Shown in pieces: positions 56,128-63,718 of a DNA stretch of 64,000 bases (position 1 is its first letter; every line of letters starts with the position of its first letter). The notes below the pieces were generated by a model, which searched no databases, was not told the DNA's origin, and worked only from the letters and a program-made list of their open reading frames with translations. The stretch comes from Agarophyton chilense (lineage: Eukaryota > Rhodophyta > Florideophyceae > Gracilariales > Gracilariaceae), in contig JARGXX010000026.1 in NCBI GenBank assembly GCA_030374765.1, forward strand, positions 124,001 to 188,000, in the 5' to 3' direction. The position numbers and the translations under genes are program-made.

Positions 56128-56677
56128 TCTCTGTGTGCAAGTCAGCTTCAAATACGGTTGAAACCGAAGTGGGCATAGCTGTGTCCACATCAGCTTTTCT
56201 GCTTCTGGCCGCCATTGTCGTGTAGAAGCGTGGCTGGCGTATGGTTTCGACATCATGTTGAGAAGAAAGCACCGGGGCCTTCTGTCGGGCGAACCAAGGC
56301 TGTTGGGGAAAGATCCAGGCCGGGACCGCTTGATTGTGGGAACCCATTTCCATCTCAACGCAAGTGGAGCTGTTCTCGGGCAATGTGGGTTCAGACGGCG
56401 TAGCAATTACAGAAAAGCGCGTGTAGACTTGTCAAGAGATCTGCTGCCGACTGCATTGGATTAACATGTACCTTGTGAAGACAAGTAGCGGTAAGCTGAC
56501 GCAGGGAAGATATTATCTTTTCGTAGCGATATTATCTTGTGTCTGCGTTGACCAAATAGATACTACAGTATTAGCCAATCCAGACGGCCCGTTTAGTTTG
56601 GGCGAGTGAGGTCGACACAAGCCAATCAAAAGTCCCCGCTCGAACATATGTACGGGCATCATTGATATCTTGCATGT
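56128..56677. other. spacer before the copia element
   Basis: No convincing gene. Minus-strand frames at 56095-56406 could contain the start of the carotenoid-oxygenase gene, but they show no family motif. Confidence 0.4.
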
Positions 56678-56682
56678 GTAAT

Positions 56683-56890
56683 TATGGGAAGCAGTCGTAC
56701 GCAGAGCGAGAGGGCTGTTGGTCTGGTGTCTAGTATGCACTCGCAACGCGCGGTGGAATCGAGGAAGGTGGAACGGGCACAAGGTGTCCCCTCTTGCTCC
56801 TCTGTCCCCAGTGTCTCGGGGTGGAGCAAGAGTGAGGTTTAGTATGCAGCGCCGACGGCATTGTGCCATGTGCCAATCGTGTATTGCACA
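56683..56890 (-). repeat. 3' LTR of the copia element
   Basis: 208 bp, from TATGGGAAGC to GTATTGCACA on the plus strand; it pairs with 63511-63718. In element orientation it begins TGTGCAATAC. A purine-rich tract (GGCGGGGAG on the minus strand) abuts it at 56891-56899 as the likely plus-strand primer. Confidence 0.9.
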
Positions 56891-57197
56891 CTCCCCGCCT
56901 ACGCGCGATACAATAATTTTTGATTTTTTGGAGTGCGGCCAAATGCTCAACAACTCCCATTTTGACCCTAAGCGCGATATTTTTGGCGCATCTTCCTCGC
57001 GGGCCAGTTATTTCCAAAAAGATCTCCCCTGTGTGCCTTCAGCGTTTTGCGAGTACCCTTACATTTCCCTCTGAGAACCGTGCACGCGCCAAAACGCCAG
57101 ATTTGCAACGTCACTGTTGCCATCTAAAAGTGTGAAACCTTGACGCGAATCTCGATGTGTCACCTCTTTCCAGACAGCGTGGACGACTTCTGCTGAG
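56891..57197 (+). promoter_or_regulatory. probable promoter region of the antisense copia gene
   Basis: About 300 bp between the 3' LTR and the start of the antisense gene. It has no open frame of its own and includes an AT-rich stretch near 56905-56925. That it drives rightward transcription is inferred only from position. Confidence 0.3.
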
Positions 57198-57276
57198 ATG
57201 AATCCATCGATGGCTCGCACTAAGCAGACGGCTCGCAAATCTGTTGGCGGAAAACCCCCATGGCGCAAGCTTGCAG

Positions 57277-57362
57277 GTAAAGAGGCAAGAATTACAAGGG
57301 AGACACATCTTGACCAATACCTTAACAAGAATATTGTTAAGCTTCTCTGTTTCAAACCGCAG
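57277..57362 (+). other. predicted intron 1 of the antisense copia gene
   Basis: 86 nt, beginning GTAAAG and ending CCGCAG. CCTTAAC resembles a branch point and a pyrimidine-rich stretch precedes the AG. Its removal joins frame 0 to frame 2 without a stop and preserves the H3-like context (WRKLA then ARREKI). Confidence 0.6.
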
Positions 57363-57664
57363 CGCGGCGTGAAAAAATCTACGCAACCACTTTCGAGGGC
57401 AGCAACAACCTCGTGCGGTTTAGCGAAAACGAATCAATCGTTCTGCTCGGGCGCAGGATAACTCATTTTTTCCGGCAGTATCGTGGCATGCAATTTGAAG
57501 GGTTGATGCTGTTCCGATTGGGTCTTACAGAGACTTTGGATGACGAAGACAATCCCGATACCAGTATTGAGTATAACGATTGCATGATCGAGAAGGTATG
57601 GTTGTCGAGAGGAGGTCGTGGTGAGATTAAGGACCATTTCTATGCTCTGGATCATGGCACTAAC

Positions 57665-57708
57665 GTAGTGTGCCCCATCGATATGCATACTTTCTGAATC
57701 GAGTACAG
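57665..57708 (+). other. predicted intron 2 of the antisense copia gene
   Basis: 44 nt, beginning GTAGTG and ending GTACAG. Its removal in phase 0 joins two open frames (ALDHGTN to SAVGGNASR) and removes an in-frame TGA. It is unusually short, so the exact sites are less certain than for intron 1. Confidence 0.5.
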
Positions 57709-58577
57709 TCGGCAGTTGGAGGTAATGCGTCGAGAATTAGGGTTACGTATGATGGCACAGGAGCAGAGGGAACCTTCCATTGGGGAGGTAAGGACCGGTA
57801 TAAAGCGATCAAGAGCATTATAGCTACTTGCAGCGCAAAGCCATTTCAAAGGCTCACCGTGCTCCAACCCGAAGCGCGGATGCCGTCGTCGGGCGTCCGA
57901 AGTTTCCATCTCCGTCATACGTCGATGCAGTTTCGCGACGAGACGTTTCTGTGCCTTGAAGCTTCTTTAAGTAATTCGTTAGCTCTAACCATTGGGTCCG
58001 AGAAGGCTGCTTTGTGTTGGGCGTATCTCGTCGATCGCGTTAGGAAGAACGCAGACGATAATGAGATGTACTTGAACGCCGTTGCAGGTCTTGGGTTTGG
58101 TGATATTCTTTAGCTTGAATATTGGAACCAGAAGGCGCGAAGGAAGGTCCGAGGGAAGTTTCGGGACCTCAAGGATATGCAGAGGTTTGTTCGGGAAAAG
58201 ACCCGTGTTATTAGCCTCGATTACCTTCGCGATGGGACTGGACGCCGAGAAGAGAACTTCGATTTGGATAACTTCCGCGATAGCGGAAACGTCTTCCTTG
58301 CCAGTCTTCAGGCGATTGACGGATACCTGCATGCGATTTGCATAGATGGGGGGCGCAACATGAGTATTGATCCAATGGAGAAGTATCACATGGATCTCAC
58401 TCAGGTTGCTCTCGAGTCCTGTGTTGGGTCAGACCGTTCTTTCAGTCACATTGCGGACTGTCGCGTAGTGCGCTTGCTCCCAGGGAGGAAGGATGGGAAA
58501 CGCGCTCGCCGCGGGAAGAAACGTCGTCACCAAGAAGGTTCTTAAACCAGGGTTTGAAATCTTTGCCATATTTGATC

Positions 58578-61500
58578 CTAAGCCTTAGGGTTCCATGCCC
58601 CTAGATGGTGGCCCATAGTAGATATGATACCTTGGCTGAGTATGCCTTGAACCATAGCTTGGTTCAATTGAGAAAATGAATGATGATTGCTCTTTGTTAA
58701 CGCGTCGGCTAAGTTGAGACTTCCCGCTATCCAACGCATGGAGGATATGTCTCCAGCTTCGAAAGAGTCACGGAGGCGCGACACGGTGGGGCGCAATCGG
58801 TAGTCTCGGCATTCGTGAAGGGTAGTGATGGTTGAGTACAAACCAAATGAGTCGACGTAAAGTACGAGTGAACCGAAATCCGATGCAAAAACTTCCATGC
58901 ATTCCCTAAGTAGTATGGATCTGTCTGCGGATTCTGCTGCCGCAAGAATTTCAGCACCAATTGAACTAAATGATATGCGTCCTTGCTTCGCGCTATGCCT
59001 GTCGACGATGTGGTAGGGAACGTTCTCACCTTGGGAGAAGGCGATGCCACTGATGTAGCCAGTTTGGCGGTAGGATGATTTTTTCCAGTGCTGGCGTCAG
59101 AGAACGTCACTATGTGGCAAGCGTTCATGTTATCCGATACCATCGCAGATCTTGGAGCCATGTACTTCACGATCGGACGTAGCTTTAAGACGAGGTTGAG
59201 GTTCTGGTTTGCTTGCAGAAGATGCCTAACGCGCATCTCTGGGAACAGCTGCTGCATGAAGCTGGCAGCGTACGCGGCTTGAGGCAGCACACCATGGTTG
59301 AGGTAGTTGAGTTTTCCAGCAAGAGACTGGATTTCTAGGACTTCTTGTTGGGTGCATAGATCCTCGGACTGCTTCCTCCTATCCATCGAGATCAGAATGG
59401 GGGCGAGCTTTTCCATAAACTCTGCCATGGAGATCTCGATCGAGAAGTCTTCATATTGCCGAATCCAAAGGCGGCTTAAGATAATCTCGTTCTTAAAGAG
59501 TGCTCTGCCAACCTTGAAGCGAGCTGAGAGAGCCTTGGAGAATTTGTTCATCTCACTCTTTGATCCAGCAAGGAGAAGATCGTCCACCAATTTGGCCAGG
59601 AGTAGAGATATACATCCATGGTCGTCCGACAATATGAACATCTGTGGAATACCAGGGACAGTACGGAATCCGTAGTCGCACAACCATTCCTCGATGCATA
59701 GCTGCCAGAGACGACCGGACTCTACTAGGCCATATGCTGGCTTGAGTAGCTTCCATACTTCGTCTACGAACTGTGTCCATCCCTTTGGAGGCCGCATGTA
59801 TATATCTCGTTTGAGGTCGCCTGATTGCAGATACGCTCTAGAGATGTTAATGCTTCCAAGGGTGAGGTGTAGTAAAGTTGCTAGGGAAAGCAGAAGTCTG
59901 ATGCAGGTGAATAGAGCCGTAGAGGAGTCAGATCGAATTTTATCCTTTTGGGAATCCCGATTTCCATGTGGTACCAGACGGCACTTGAGCTTGACCTTAC
60001 CATTCTCTATATCGAACTTCGTCACGAAGAAGTGATGGGAGGATATGATATTTGCATTTCGCGGGAGTCCTTTGATGGAGATCGGCTTGTATGCCTTGGC
60101 TTCAGAGTAGTTTCTTTTCTCTGCTTCGATGGCCATGTCGATTATCCATCGCGGGGCGAACTATAGCTTAGCTTCTGTGGCTGGTTGGACTCCAATGATC
60201 ATCTTGATCTGCTCGAGAATTCTTTGCTCCGAAGACAAAAAATTTTCGCCGATTGTAGGGAACCTAAGCGAGGTGTCGCCAACATCTCTGCCGAGTTGAG
60301 GGTTCCCGACATCCATTGAGGGTGCGTTCACAGCCGTTGTGTCTTCCTTCGACGCGAATAAGGATGAACAGAACGGATGCAGAGACCACAAATTTGGTTC
60401 GTCCGATATGTTTAGGTCGAAACTCAAAGGGTCTTCTGTGTTTTGCACAGGGAAGTCTGTAATTTCTTCATATTGGAGGGGCGGAAGAGAAGAACGATCG
60501 GTATCATTCCTTTCTTCAGGGACTGGGATCGGTTCTTCTTGGGCGTTAGTGTCCGGGAAGGACGAGTATCCAAGCTCCTGTTTGTCCAGTTCCTGTAGAA
60601 GGGATGAACGTGGGACTAACCTTATGTCCTCGTAGGCGATCTGATGCTTCGGTCCCTGGAGATTTTTGCTCGAAGAGACCGATACTATACGGTCAGTAGT
60701 AGTGACCACGAATGCCTTGTACCAGGAACCATGTTTTCCAACTCTCTTAAAGACATGTACCGGAGTGGTTGGTGCCAGAAGGTGTTTTGATAAAGGATAC
60801 GATGGCTTGGTACGAAGTAATGTGTGTACGGCACTCCTGGAAACTTGTTCGTGGTAGGAAGAAAAGAGCTTCTCTGGTAGCATCTGCTTGGGTAACCCAG
60901 AAACAGAAGGAGTGTAGCCGTGAACAAGCTCGAAGCTGCTGACTGACTTGTTACCATATAGCACATTCTTCAGGAATGTGGCTTTGGAGAGGATCTCAAA
61001 GTCCGTGCAATATACTTGACGAGTTTCCCTTAGATGAGGTTCGTCGAGGAGGAGCGTTTGGACAAATATACGGATTGTCTCGTGGCTCGATTCAACGCTT
61101 CCAATTTTGTTGTGGCGTCTACCAGGCCGCGGTTCGAATGAAATCTGATTCTCGGCACACAATCGCTGAATGGAGTCGTTATTGAACTCTGGGTCTCCTG
61201 ATAATTCTGATGGAGGCCCAAAGACATCAAACCAATGAACAACAATCATGCGAGCGGTATCAGTCATATCCCTTGAAGCCATCAAGACAGTAACGGAGAG
61301 ACCAGTTGATATATCCTTCATATGCAGAATGGGGAGGTTTCCAAACTCGCGTATGAATAGGAAATCCACTTGAAGGTGCTCGTTGAACTCACCCAGTATT
61401 CTCTTGAGTGATATCTTTCGAGAGTGTAACGGGCGGCCAGACCTTTTGCATGAAGTGCAAGATTTGTAGGCCTGTTCGAGCTCACCAGCAAGTGTTCAAT

Positions 61501-62155: not shown

Positions 62156-63483
62156 TAAGCATGATTGCGTTTCGATGGGGCGGCGCCTGGCGTAAAATCC
62201 GCGTTAGGTCCACGGTTTCGTTCTCTGGAGGCATCTTTTCTGGGATGTCTTCCTCCACGACGAGGAACTTTGGACCTACCGTCTGAATCGTTGCGTTGGC
62301 GTTCGAGCTTCCTCTTCTTTGTCAAAAATGAGGGACTTGGGAACAAGTCATTGCCCGCCATGTGCTCTGTATCACCACAATCGAAACAGAAAGACGACTT
62401 TCCACCTTTTCCGGCCTTAACATCGGTGCGTTTCCTCTTCGCATTGCCCGGTTTGAACGATGCGGTTGATGCAATTCCCTCGTTCCTGTGTCCCAAGCGA
62501 GTTAGTACGCTCTGGTTGGATTGGGAAATCGCAAATAAAGCAGTTTGAACTTTCTGAACCATGATGTTTTCAAGGTCTTCCCTTTTATAATGAGCAGCAG
62601 AGCTCAAAGGGTAAAAGAAAGATTCCGTATGACTGTAACGCCGTCATCCAGGTTTAGACGGCATCTGCGGGAGGGTTGAAGGAGCTTGTTGATAGAAGGA
62701 GTTTGGGCTGGTCTTTGAGTGAGTGTCTGTAATATGTCCCTCGAACTCAACGACCGCTTCATTGATCCTTCTTTTGGTTACCAAAAGCTTTGCCTTCGTC
62801 ATATTGTGATTATCGCGCCTCGAAATCTTAAGGTGAGGCCTCGATAGCATTTCACGGAGGTTGTTTACAGACTCCTGAAACTTCACAAGATTGATGTGGT
62901 GCTGGGTATCCCCAGTATAACTATCACTTCTCAAGCGAGCTTCGGTGAGAGAGCTGAGTTGTAGTTTGGCATTAGTCAACGTCTCCTCACTCAAGGATGC
63001 CTGGTTGAGTAGCGTTATTGCCAGAACTTCTCCGACCTGAAACGAGGATGAGAGTCCACCGTGCATGAGATGATCGGCATCCAAGCCGCGGAAACGTGAT
63101 ACTAAGCTAGCCAGAGGCTCATCCTTACGACGACGGCAGTTTGTAACACGATTGAAGGAAGAAATCAACCGAGAAACAACAGCAATTGGAGGGTCGACTG
63201 CGACAAGTTCAACGATTTCGCATACTGCTTTCACTTGGTCTTCTTGCATGTAATCAACAATTCCTTTTTCTTGGGCTTCGTCGACCACGGATTTCTGAGC
63301 ACTAGGTAGAGCTCTGTCGTACAGCTGTAAACCTAGAGTCGCAAAGATTGTTTGGTAACCACGATCGGTGCCCTTCTTGGCAGCCGTAGAAATAGTATCC
63401 ACCCATCGACAAACGTTGCGGCGCCATTCTTGTTGATCTTTGGTCGGATCAAACTTTGGCGGGTCTGTCAGATTGAAAGACAT
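62155..63483 (-). pseudogene. gag: copia gag, one TGA
   Basis: It starts at ATG 63483 (MSFNLTDPPKFDPTKD), 27 bp inside the 5' LTR. A helical capsid-like region follows (DQQEWRRNVCRWVDTI ... RRKDEPLASLVSRFRGLDAD). A TGA at 62644-62646 interrupts after MPSKPG, and the same frame resumes with REDLENIMVQKVQTAL. A nucleocapsid-type zinc knuckle (CFDCGDTEHMAGND) has lost its last Cys (Asp instead). The tail is very basic. Gag would package the RNA genome. The TGA and the lost zinc ligand point to decay. Confidence 0.82.
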
Positions 63484-63492
63484 AACAGCTCC

Positions 63493-63510
63493 TGCCTCTG
63501 GGCCCATAAC
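63493..63510 (-). other. putative primer-binding site of the copia element
   Basis: Just inside the 5' LTR the minus strand reads GTTATGGGCCCAGAGGCA. A TGG start four bases from the LTR would pair with a tRNA CCA end. It does not resemble the plant-type initiator-Met site, so the primer tRNA is unknown. Confidence 0.4.
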
Positions 63511-63718
63511 TATGGGAAGCAGTCGTATGCAGAGCGAGAGGGCTGTTGGTCTGCTGTCTAGTATGCACTCGCAACGCGCGGTGGAACCGAGGAAGGTGGA
63601 ACGGGCACAAGGTGTCCCCTCTTGCTCCTCTGTCCCCAGTGTCTCGGGGTGGAGCAAGAGTAATGTTTAGTATGCAGCGCCGGCGGCATTGTGCCAGGTG
63701 GCTTTCGTGTATTGCACA
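63511..63718 (-). repeat. 5' LTR of the copia element
   Basis: 208 bp, paired with 56683-56890. It is followed by the target copy GTAAT at 63719-63723. It carries the promoter for leftward genomic RNA. Confidence 0.9.

Follow-up and report, generated by a model that had tools for sequence, protein, structure and literature searches.

The window, a stretch of 64,000 nucleotides of Agarophyton chilense DNA, contains an LTR element of about 7.04 kb that spans positions ~56677 to ~63718. Its direct repeats are 212 bp long, 95% identical and 6828 apart. By its RVT_2-type reverse transcriptase (RT) and its direct LTRs, the element is a Ty1/copia LTR retrotransposon, and 60 relatives of its RT were found at E ≤ 1e-20, of which 57 contain PF07727. 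The features of the element are:

56677..56890, - strand: 3' LTR (in gag-pol sense), direct repeat, outer edge set by eye
57144-57461, 57341-57697, 57664-58113 and 58114-58545, + strand: stop-to-stop pieces of the antisense accessory gene (aORF) in the window
57198..57200, + strand: in-frame upstream ATG, present in 2/21 copies, not conserved
57210..57290, + strand: H3-tail segment, Met plus the residues matching histone H3 1-26
57210..58545, + strand: aORF, ~450 codons in the family, broken in the window copy
58581..59096, - strand: last pol segment, RNase H by position only, without Pfam match
58730..60160, - strand: reverse transcriptase, RVT_2 (PF07727), E 1.6e-23, cutoff passed
60164..61495, - strand: integrase region, assigned by eye, without rve match in Pfam
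62647..63666, - strand: gag-like ORF, assigned by position, without Pfam match
63507..63718, - strand: 5' LTR, differing from the 3' LTR at 11/212 sites

The aORF does not overlap pol, which ends at about 58581; it occupies the space between pol and the 3' LTR, converging on pol. In this placement, in its presence in most copies and in its conservation as a protein, it fits the antisense aORF-3R class. The ORF upstream of the RT (60164-61495) is integrase-like by eye only, with no rve match. Near its end there is a weak, sub-cutoff match to a Tudor domain (PF18336, E 8.5e-4, - strand), and a Tudor-like stretch was found in most copies of the copia family. We set this match aside, as it does not reach the cutoff and none of the 8 related pol proteins scanned (out of 60 found) shows it. 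No matching 5-bp flanks that would mark a target-site duplication were seen by eye, the LTR edges being uncertain and the insertion old.

An earlier note on this DNA had described an antisense gene that opens with a histone H3 tail inside a complete copia element. The tail, its antisense orientation and the copia element all stood, but the gene is not intact in the window copy. On the + strand the sequence from 57210, ATG GCT CGC ACT AAG CAG ACG GCT CGC AAA TCT, encodes MARTKQTARKS, and the Met of the tail is therefore at 57210 and not at 57198, where the gene had been said to start. The first in-frame ATG, at 57198 and 12 bases upstream of the tail, was rejected as a start codon because only two of the 21 aligned copies (the window copy and L032) have it; at this position 14 copies have GTG, four TTG and one GTT. 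A TTCTGCTCAG-like stretch that resembles a splice acceptor lies upstream of the tail ATG in many copies (57165-57209 in the window), and the antisense gene might have a spliced leader.

The first 57 codons were read in each of 36 distinct copies, comprising the 21 aligned copies minus the near-identical L026, L027, L029 and L030, plus 19 others (L046, L058-L068 and L070-L076). The parallel to H3 noticed beyond residue 10 (VGGKPPWRKLA) held, but the match runs to residue 26, not 22. At residues 1-10, 289 of 360 cells were identical to H3; the count was 323/576 for residues 11-26 and 5/504 for residues 27-40, so that the match ends sharply at Arg26. Exact MARTKQTARK was present in 10/36 copies, and 30/36 had three or fewer mismatches in ARTKQTARKS. 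Further along, K23 was kept in 31 copies and K14 in 23, while K18 (Arg in 23) and K27 (Ile in 24) were kept in none of the 36; nearly every copy differs from H3 at T11, K18 and T22, and changes at G13, A15 and R17 are frequent. The tail of L046, which has the family LTR upstream, is 69% identical to H3 over 32 residues, compared with 59-78% over 27-31 residues in other copies.

A profile search of PDB sequences with alignment A2 (E ≤ 10) returned histone H3 or its variants as all of the best 60 of 131 matches (best E 2.5e-4), covering residues 1 to ~30. The remainder of the protein was confirmed not to be a histone fold: PF00125 matched none of the four window pieces or three relatives, and copies of the copia family were absent from the 13 genome matches of PF00125. 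When the genome was searched with a host H3 protein (E ≤ 10), 40 places were found. Divided by coordinates, these were six pieces of H3 genes or variants, seven pieces of an H3-fragment repeat and 27 tails of the copia family (best E 4e-5, weakest 1.1). A chance match, which had been thought very unlikely, is thus excluded by 27 of the 40 matches being tails of one family. Two diverged H3-type genes were also seen, L012 (C88:2165565; 55% identical) and L013 (C96:452655; 65%), each over about 115 residues; they may perhaps be a centromeric H3 and another variant.

The window copy had been interpreted as a gene with an intron and a 402-codon spliced product. Comparison of copies did not bear this out: the GT at 57277-57278 is found in the window copy alone, with GC in 20/21 copies, and the intron and its product were rejected because the splice donor is unique to that copy (1/21). 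The supposed intron is mostly read through as coding in the 20 other copies (L022-L041). About 95 bases past the supposed donor, the window copy has a one-base gap, followed by a stop and other frame breaks, and the 402-codon product is a bypass of this one-base deletion. Without an intron, the original frame ran uninterrupted through a protein of ~450 amino acids, a length pieced together from L022, which is open for 377 codons from the tail ATG and ends early, and from the C-termini of L023, L025 and L041. All 21 copies that were read over the whole gene are broken, with a stop before the family C-terminus, which counts against the functional reading proposed below.

The gene region gave 43 DNA matches in the 79.76-Mb genome, and the L022 protein gave 111, with pieces counted apart. 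All 36 of the distinct copies read over the start have the tail or decayed remains of it. Outside the 36 are at least three places that match from residues 1-7 (C80:2262719, C21:375238 and C21:374900) and places where the L022 match begins at residues 14-20 or later. Neither the ORF nor the tail is therefore confined to the window copy, and a stray H3 fragment in a single copy was not borne out. In L037, a gag-like stretch upstream of position 1214 is in frame, on the same strand and directly before the H3 tail; the LTR matches of this copy are inverted relative to the tail, indicating a rearranged element. A protein search with L022 gave no match among 4594 candidates, and a search of IMG/VR with an H3-tail DNA pattern gave none. 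The copia version was not found by the protein database searches (L022, A2), a further point against that functional reading.

LTR pairs measured in 10 copies, among them the near-identical duplicates L027-L030, differed by 5-21%. The youngest had differences of 5.2% (window copy), 5.3% and 5.9%, the oldest up to 21%, and no difference below 5% was seen among the 10. The copia family is old and now decayed, and no live copy was seen among the copies examined. Five near-identical element copies (L026-L030, on contigs C82 twice, C14, C81 and C106) were spread by DNA duplication or assembly repetition rather than by recent transposition, because the four measurable ones have LTR differences of ~21%.

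Purifying selection on the tail, put forward as a check in the earlier note, was found on internal branches, which we took as elements that still moved; terminal branches were near neutral. For codons 30-377 in 17 distinct copies, internal branches had N111:S142 and terminal branches N862:S310 (Fisher p 5.5e-19), the terminal N/S of 2.78 being close to the neutral expectation of 2.82. Over 375 codons, internal N/S was 0.78 in the frame of the gene; the two remaining frames on that strand gave 5.4 and 3.9. The opposite strand gave 3.9, 4.4 and 0.97; the last value, from the frame whose third codon positions coincide with those of the gene, weighs against specificity for the gene frame. An RT control (12/17 copies with at least 900 aligned bases) gave internal N105:S65 and terminal N565:S208, so that selection on the RT appears weaker than on the aORF, which likewise tells against the favoured interpretation.

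Within the tail, codons 1-29 on the 17-copy tree had internal N11:S14 and terminal N67:S24 (p 0.008), while the internal changes in codons 1-10 were only N2:S3, a small count that stands on the other side. With 36 copies, codons 1-11 had internal N9:S14 versus terminal N79:S20 (p 2.3e-4), and codons 12-29 had internal N39:S23; the difference between codons 1-11 and 12-56 on internal branches gave p 0.04. A tree built without the tail gave a similar result for codons 1-11 (internal N7:S13 versus terminal N81:S26, p 9e-4). Among 40 bootstrap trees, p was below 0.05 in 31; the nine that did not reach this level count against selection on the tail. In codons 1-11 the internal N/S had a bootstrap median of 0.64, ranging from 0.24 to 1.44; in codons 12-29 the median was 1.7. 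On the old branches, then, the aORF was under purifying selection, most strongly in the tail, and the young branches look neutral.

Residues A1, K4 and K9 are central for H3 readers and writers. Internal replacements over 41 trees were rarest at A1 (0), K4 (2), Met (7) and K9 (10), followed by S10 (17), T6 (28), A7 (31), Q5 (36), R8 (37), R2 (57) and T3 (70). The first ten residues therefore stayed H3-like as long as the family was mobile, most strictly at A1, K4 and K9, where few internal replacements occurred. Replacements do exist in codons 1-11 at R2, T3, Q5, T6, A7 and R8, which speaks against strict conservation of the tail; R2 and T3 are under looser constraint, although the counts are small and the trees uncertain.

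The body of the protein has no Pfam family in the window pieces or three relatives; three stray matches (E 0.09-0.33) occurred in single rows, and a sub-cutoff match to DUF5551 (E 0.0046) runs across the window tail piece. Profile comparison of the body with PDB sequences gave no convincing match (best E 0.19). The C-terminus is strongly basic and NLS-like. A Cys motif is common to the copia and gypsy versions (CLEASLSNALAL / CIQAAICNGLDL), as are a His (DGYLHAICID / GVIHSLVID) and an Asp (IIDP / ILDC). By eye, in rows chosen as open pieces, the Cys was present in 11/11 in-frame rows, the His in 9/12 and the Asp in 10/11. We take the order Cys...His...Asp to be that of papain-like peptidases, and the body looks like a papain-type cysteine peptidase, which we offer as a lead only. 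This idea comes from the motif, since neither AlphaFold2 model gave a usable fold (mean pLDDT 37 and 33), and that failure counts against it.

The gypsy version was recognized through matches of the L022 protein to four better-preserved places (C4, C3, C92 and C135) at 24-26% identity, with the homologues on C4 and C92 open over 471 codons. The C4 homologue belongs to a different element, where it is placed downstream of pol in antisense orientation; the - strand ORFs of this element encode, in order, an aspartyl protease with RVT_1 (E 1.8e-34), RNase H (PF17917, E 2.8e-39), an integrase zinc-binding domain and rve. This element is of the Ty3/gypsy type, because integrase follows RT; its LTRs were not found in the pieces examined. 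Among 6944 protein candidates, profile A2 (E ≤ 0.01) gave a single match, P0001, a transcript-derived ORF from EukProt (GEZJ01002355.1) that is 98% identical to the gypsy version. P0001 begins MRVSQ, one residue before the end of the H3 match, where the alignment is weak. Because a homologue occurs in gypsy and P0001 starts near the end of the H3 match, an accessory protein of two retroelement superfamilies probably gained its H3 tail in copia. The simplest history is thus probably an accessory protein common to gypsy and copia, to which the H3 tail was added in the copia branch.

Taken together, the data describe a histone-tail sequence that sits in a non-histone protein and was kept by selection, which is one mark of a histone mimic. 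A tail maintained in this way suggests that a mobile element imitated host chromatin, and histone mimicry appears to be the best reading of the tail and a reasonable one. We consider it rather probable that this is an old copia aORF with a tail derived from an H3 gene, whose protein served as a decoy for the host H3 K4/K9 machinery or as a chromatin tether. Transcription from the 3' side of the element would yield the aORF protein. The initiator Met is usually trimmed before Ala at a protein start; the mature protein would for this reason begin ARTKQTARKS, as H3 does, and removal of Met would expose the H3-like N-terminus. Within the nucleus, the tail could become a ligand or a substrate of host readers and writers of H3 K4/K9. 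This might draw host factors away from the element, as an anti-silencing decoy, or might anchor the protein to chromatin, perhaps together with the integration complex. We infer that the protein was expressed, lost its Met, entered the nucleus and was bound there, and that this had an effect. A more specific form, which we hold tentatively, would have a dedicated H3-tail mimic with an exposed H3 1-26 segment on a putative nuclear, cysteine-peptidase-like body shared with gypsy, acting as a decoy or tether for the H3K4/K9 machinery and either escaping silencing or steering integration.

It is also possible, if unlikely, that the captured H3 segment serves only as a basic segment for nuclear import or nucleic-acid binding, with charge under selection rather than H3 identity. 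The tail is very basic, as is the C-terminus, and some plant antisense aORF proteins are nuclear (PMC7264820). Yet the non-basic residues were kept about as often in the 36 copies (A1 33, T3 28, Q5 30, T6 27, A7 26) as the basic ones (R2 28, K4 32, R8 29, K9 28), and charge alone therefore explains less than mimicry. A strong basic cluster, moreover, already exists at the C-terminus. The internal replacements are fewest at A1 and K4, yet most numerous at R2 and T3, and the numbers are small.

As to the origin of the tail, it was most likely captured from a histone H3 gene, as we infer from the comparison of copies. L046 and L059 branch first on the midpoint-rooted tree and are the only two of the 36 copies with Thr11 as in H3, a point for descent from H3 rather than convergence. 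No more than 9 of 22 codons of the tail are identical to those of any of the three host H3 genes, and in 21 copies the 200 bases that precede the ATG gave no match to the leaders of these genes at E ≤ 0.01. There is consequently no direct DNA trace of capture, which counts against it; since the codons point to none of the three host genes, any capture must be old. The same grounds led us to reject a recently copied host H3 gene, promoter included, as the origin. A separate dispersed repeat, seen in seven copies, carries the leader, exon 1 (to about residue 42) and an apparent intron start of an H3-like gene (L047-L053: C113:929228, C7:762505, C77:409302, C31:409077, C75:632900, C75:728939 and C7:651292). 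These copies are broken by frameshifts or stops, and some are cut on the 5' side and joined to other sequence. They were rejected as the source of the tail, having no match to the window copy, L034 or L036 at E ≤ 1e-3.

Spread of this repeat shows that H3 gene starts do get mobilized in this genome, and so lends something to the proposal that the 5' end of an H3 gene, with its start codon and perhaps its promoter, was fused in frame as a passenger and gave the gene only a start. We judge this distinctly improbable: the unmatched upstream bases stand against it, as does the constraint on codons 1-11, where a passenger should have decayed, and residues 1-10 are more constrained than residues 11-28. 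Less probable still is that a basic N-terminus became H3-like stepwise. The low codon identity is compatible with such convergence, and the gypsy copies L042 and L043 have a loosely similar open stretch further upstream (MAVTRQRVRAQ...; L044 likewise, L045 shifted there). However, the match spans 26 residues and ends sharply, the first-branching L046 and L059 are H3-like at Thr11 where 34/36 copies are not, and the transcript-derived P0001 lacks the upstream stretch. A chance ORF or stray histone pseudogene in the window copy, which by itself is broken and odd-looking, is refuted by dozens of copies, frame-specific selection and the gypsy homologue.

Capture followed by mimicry, the reading we prefer, can be set against known systems. 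The earlier note knew of no described antisense gene of this kind; this holds for the tail only, antisense ORFs being known from Grande, RIRE2 and Retand (PMC7264820). Plant aORF-3R genes between pol and the 3' LTR include Grande gene23, RIRE2 and Retand ORF4, and such ORFs form a known class without known function (PMC7264820, PMC11963269). Likeness to the plant genes lies in place and direction relative to gag-pol, presence in most copies and, for some, a nuclear protein. Of 104 Retand antisense ORFs, 72 encode known domains, most often Transposase_28 (57) (PMC11963269). The copia aORF differs from Retand in its H3 tail at the start, its lack of a Pfam match and its relatives in both copia and gypsy. 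The word 'histone' does not occur in PMC7264820 or PMC11963269, the papers on plant aORFs.

Viral histone mimics listed in one review include influenza NS1 (ARSK), SARS-CoV-2 ORF8 (ARKS), HDV S-HDAg and CpBV-H4, and share with the aORF a histone sequence match in a parasite protein; those of NS1, ORF8 and adenovirus VII are short motifs of 4-5 residues, C-terminal in NS1 (PMC10208167). The copia aORF, unlike these, has ~26 H3 residues at the N-terminus of a non-histone retrotransposon protein. CpBV-H4 is a viral histone. Compared with histone H3 itself, the aORF protein is alike at residues 1-26, has no histone fold and has an unrelated body. LTR elements of bdelloid rotifers have captured extra ORFs common to diverse retroelement types, a likeness to the present case; those described are env, a GDSL esterase/lipase and a DEDDy exonuclease, and 'histone' does not occur there (PMC5408684). 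No retroelement gene of this kind was present in the titles and abstract openings among the matches listed from the openly licensed literature. The aORF therefore combines a known place for accessory genes with a known viral strategy, a combination without record in the parts of the literature covered by these searches.

Retroelements are silenced in large part by way of marks on the H3 tail. Histone mimicry has been described for viruses (PMC10208167), and an element with its own selected H3 tail would be direct evidence that transposons, too, use such mimicry in their arms race with chromatin. If the reading is correct, this would be the first retrotransposon known to make an N-terminal H3-tail mimic. 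Mimicry would also offer, for the first time, a function that can be tested for the antisense ORFs that lie between pol and the 3' LTR, in a genome where relatives of the aORF occur in two retroelement superfamilies.
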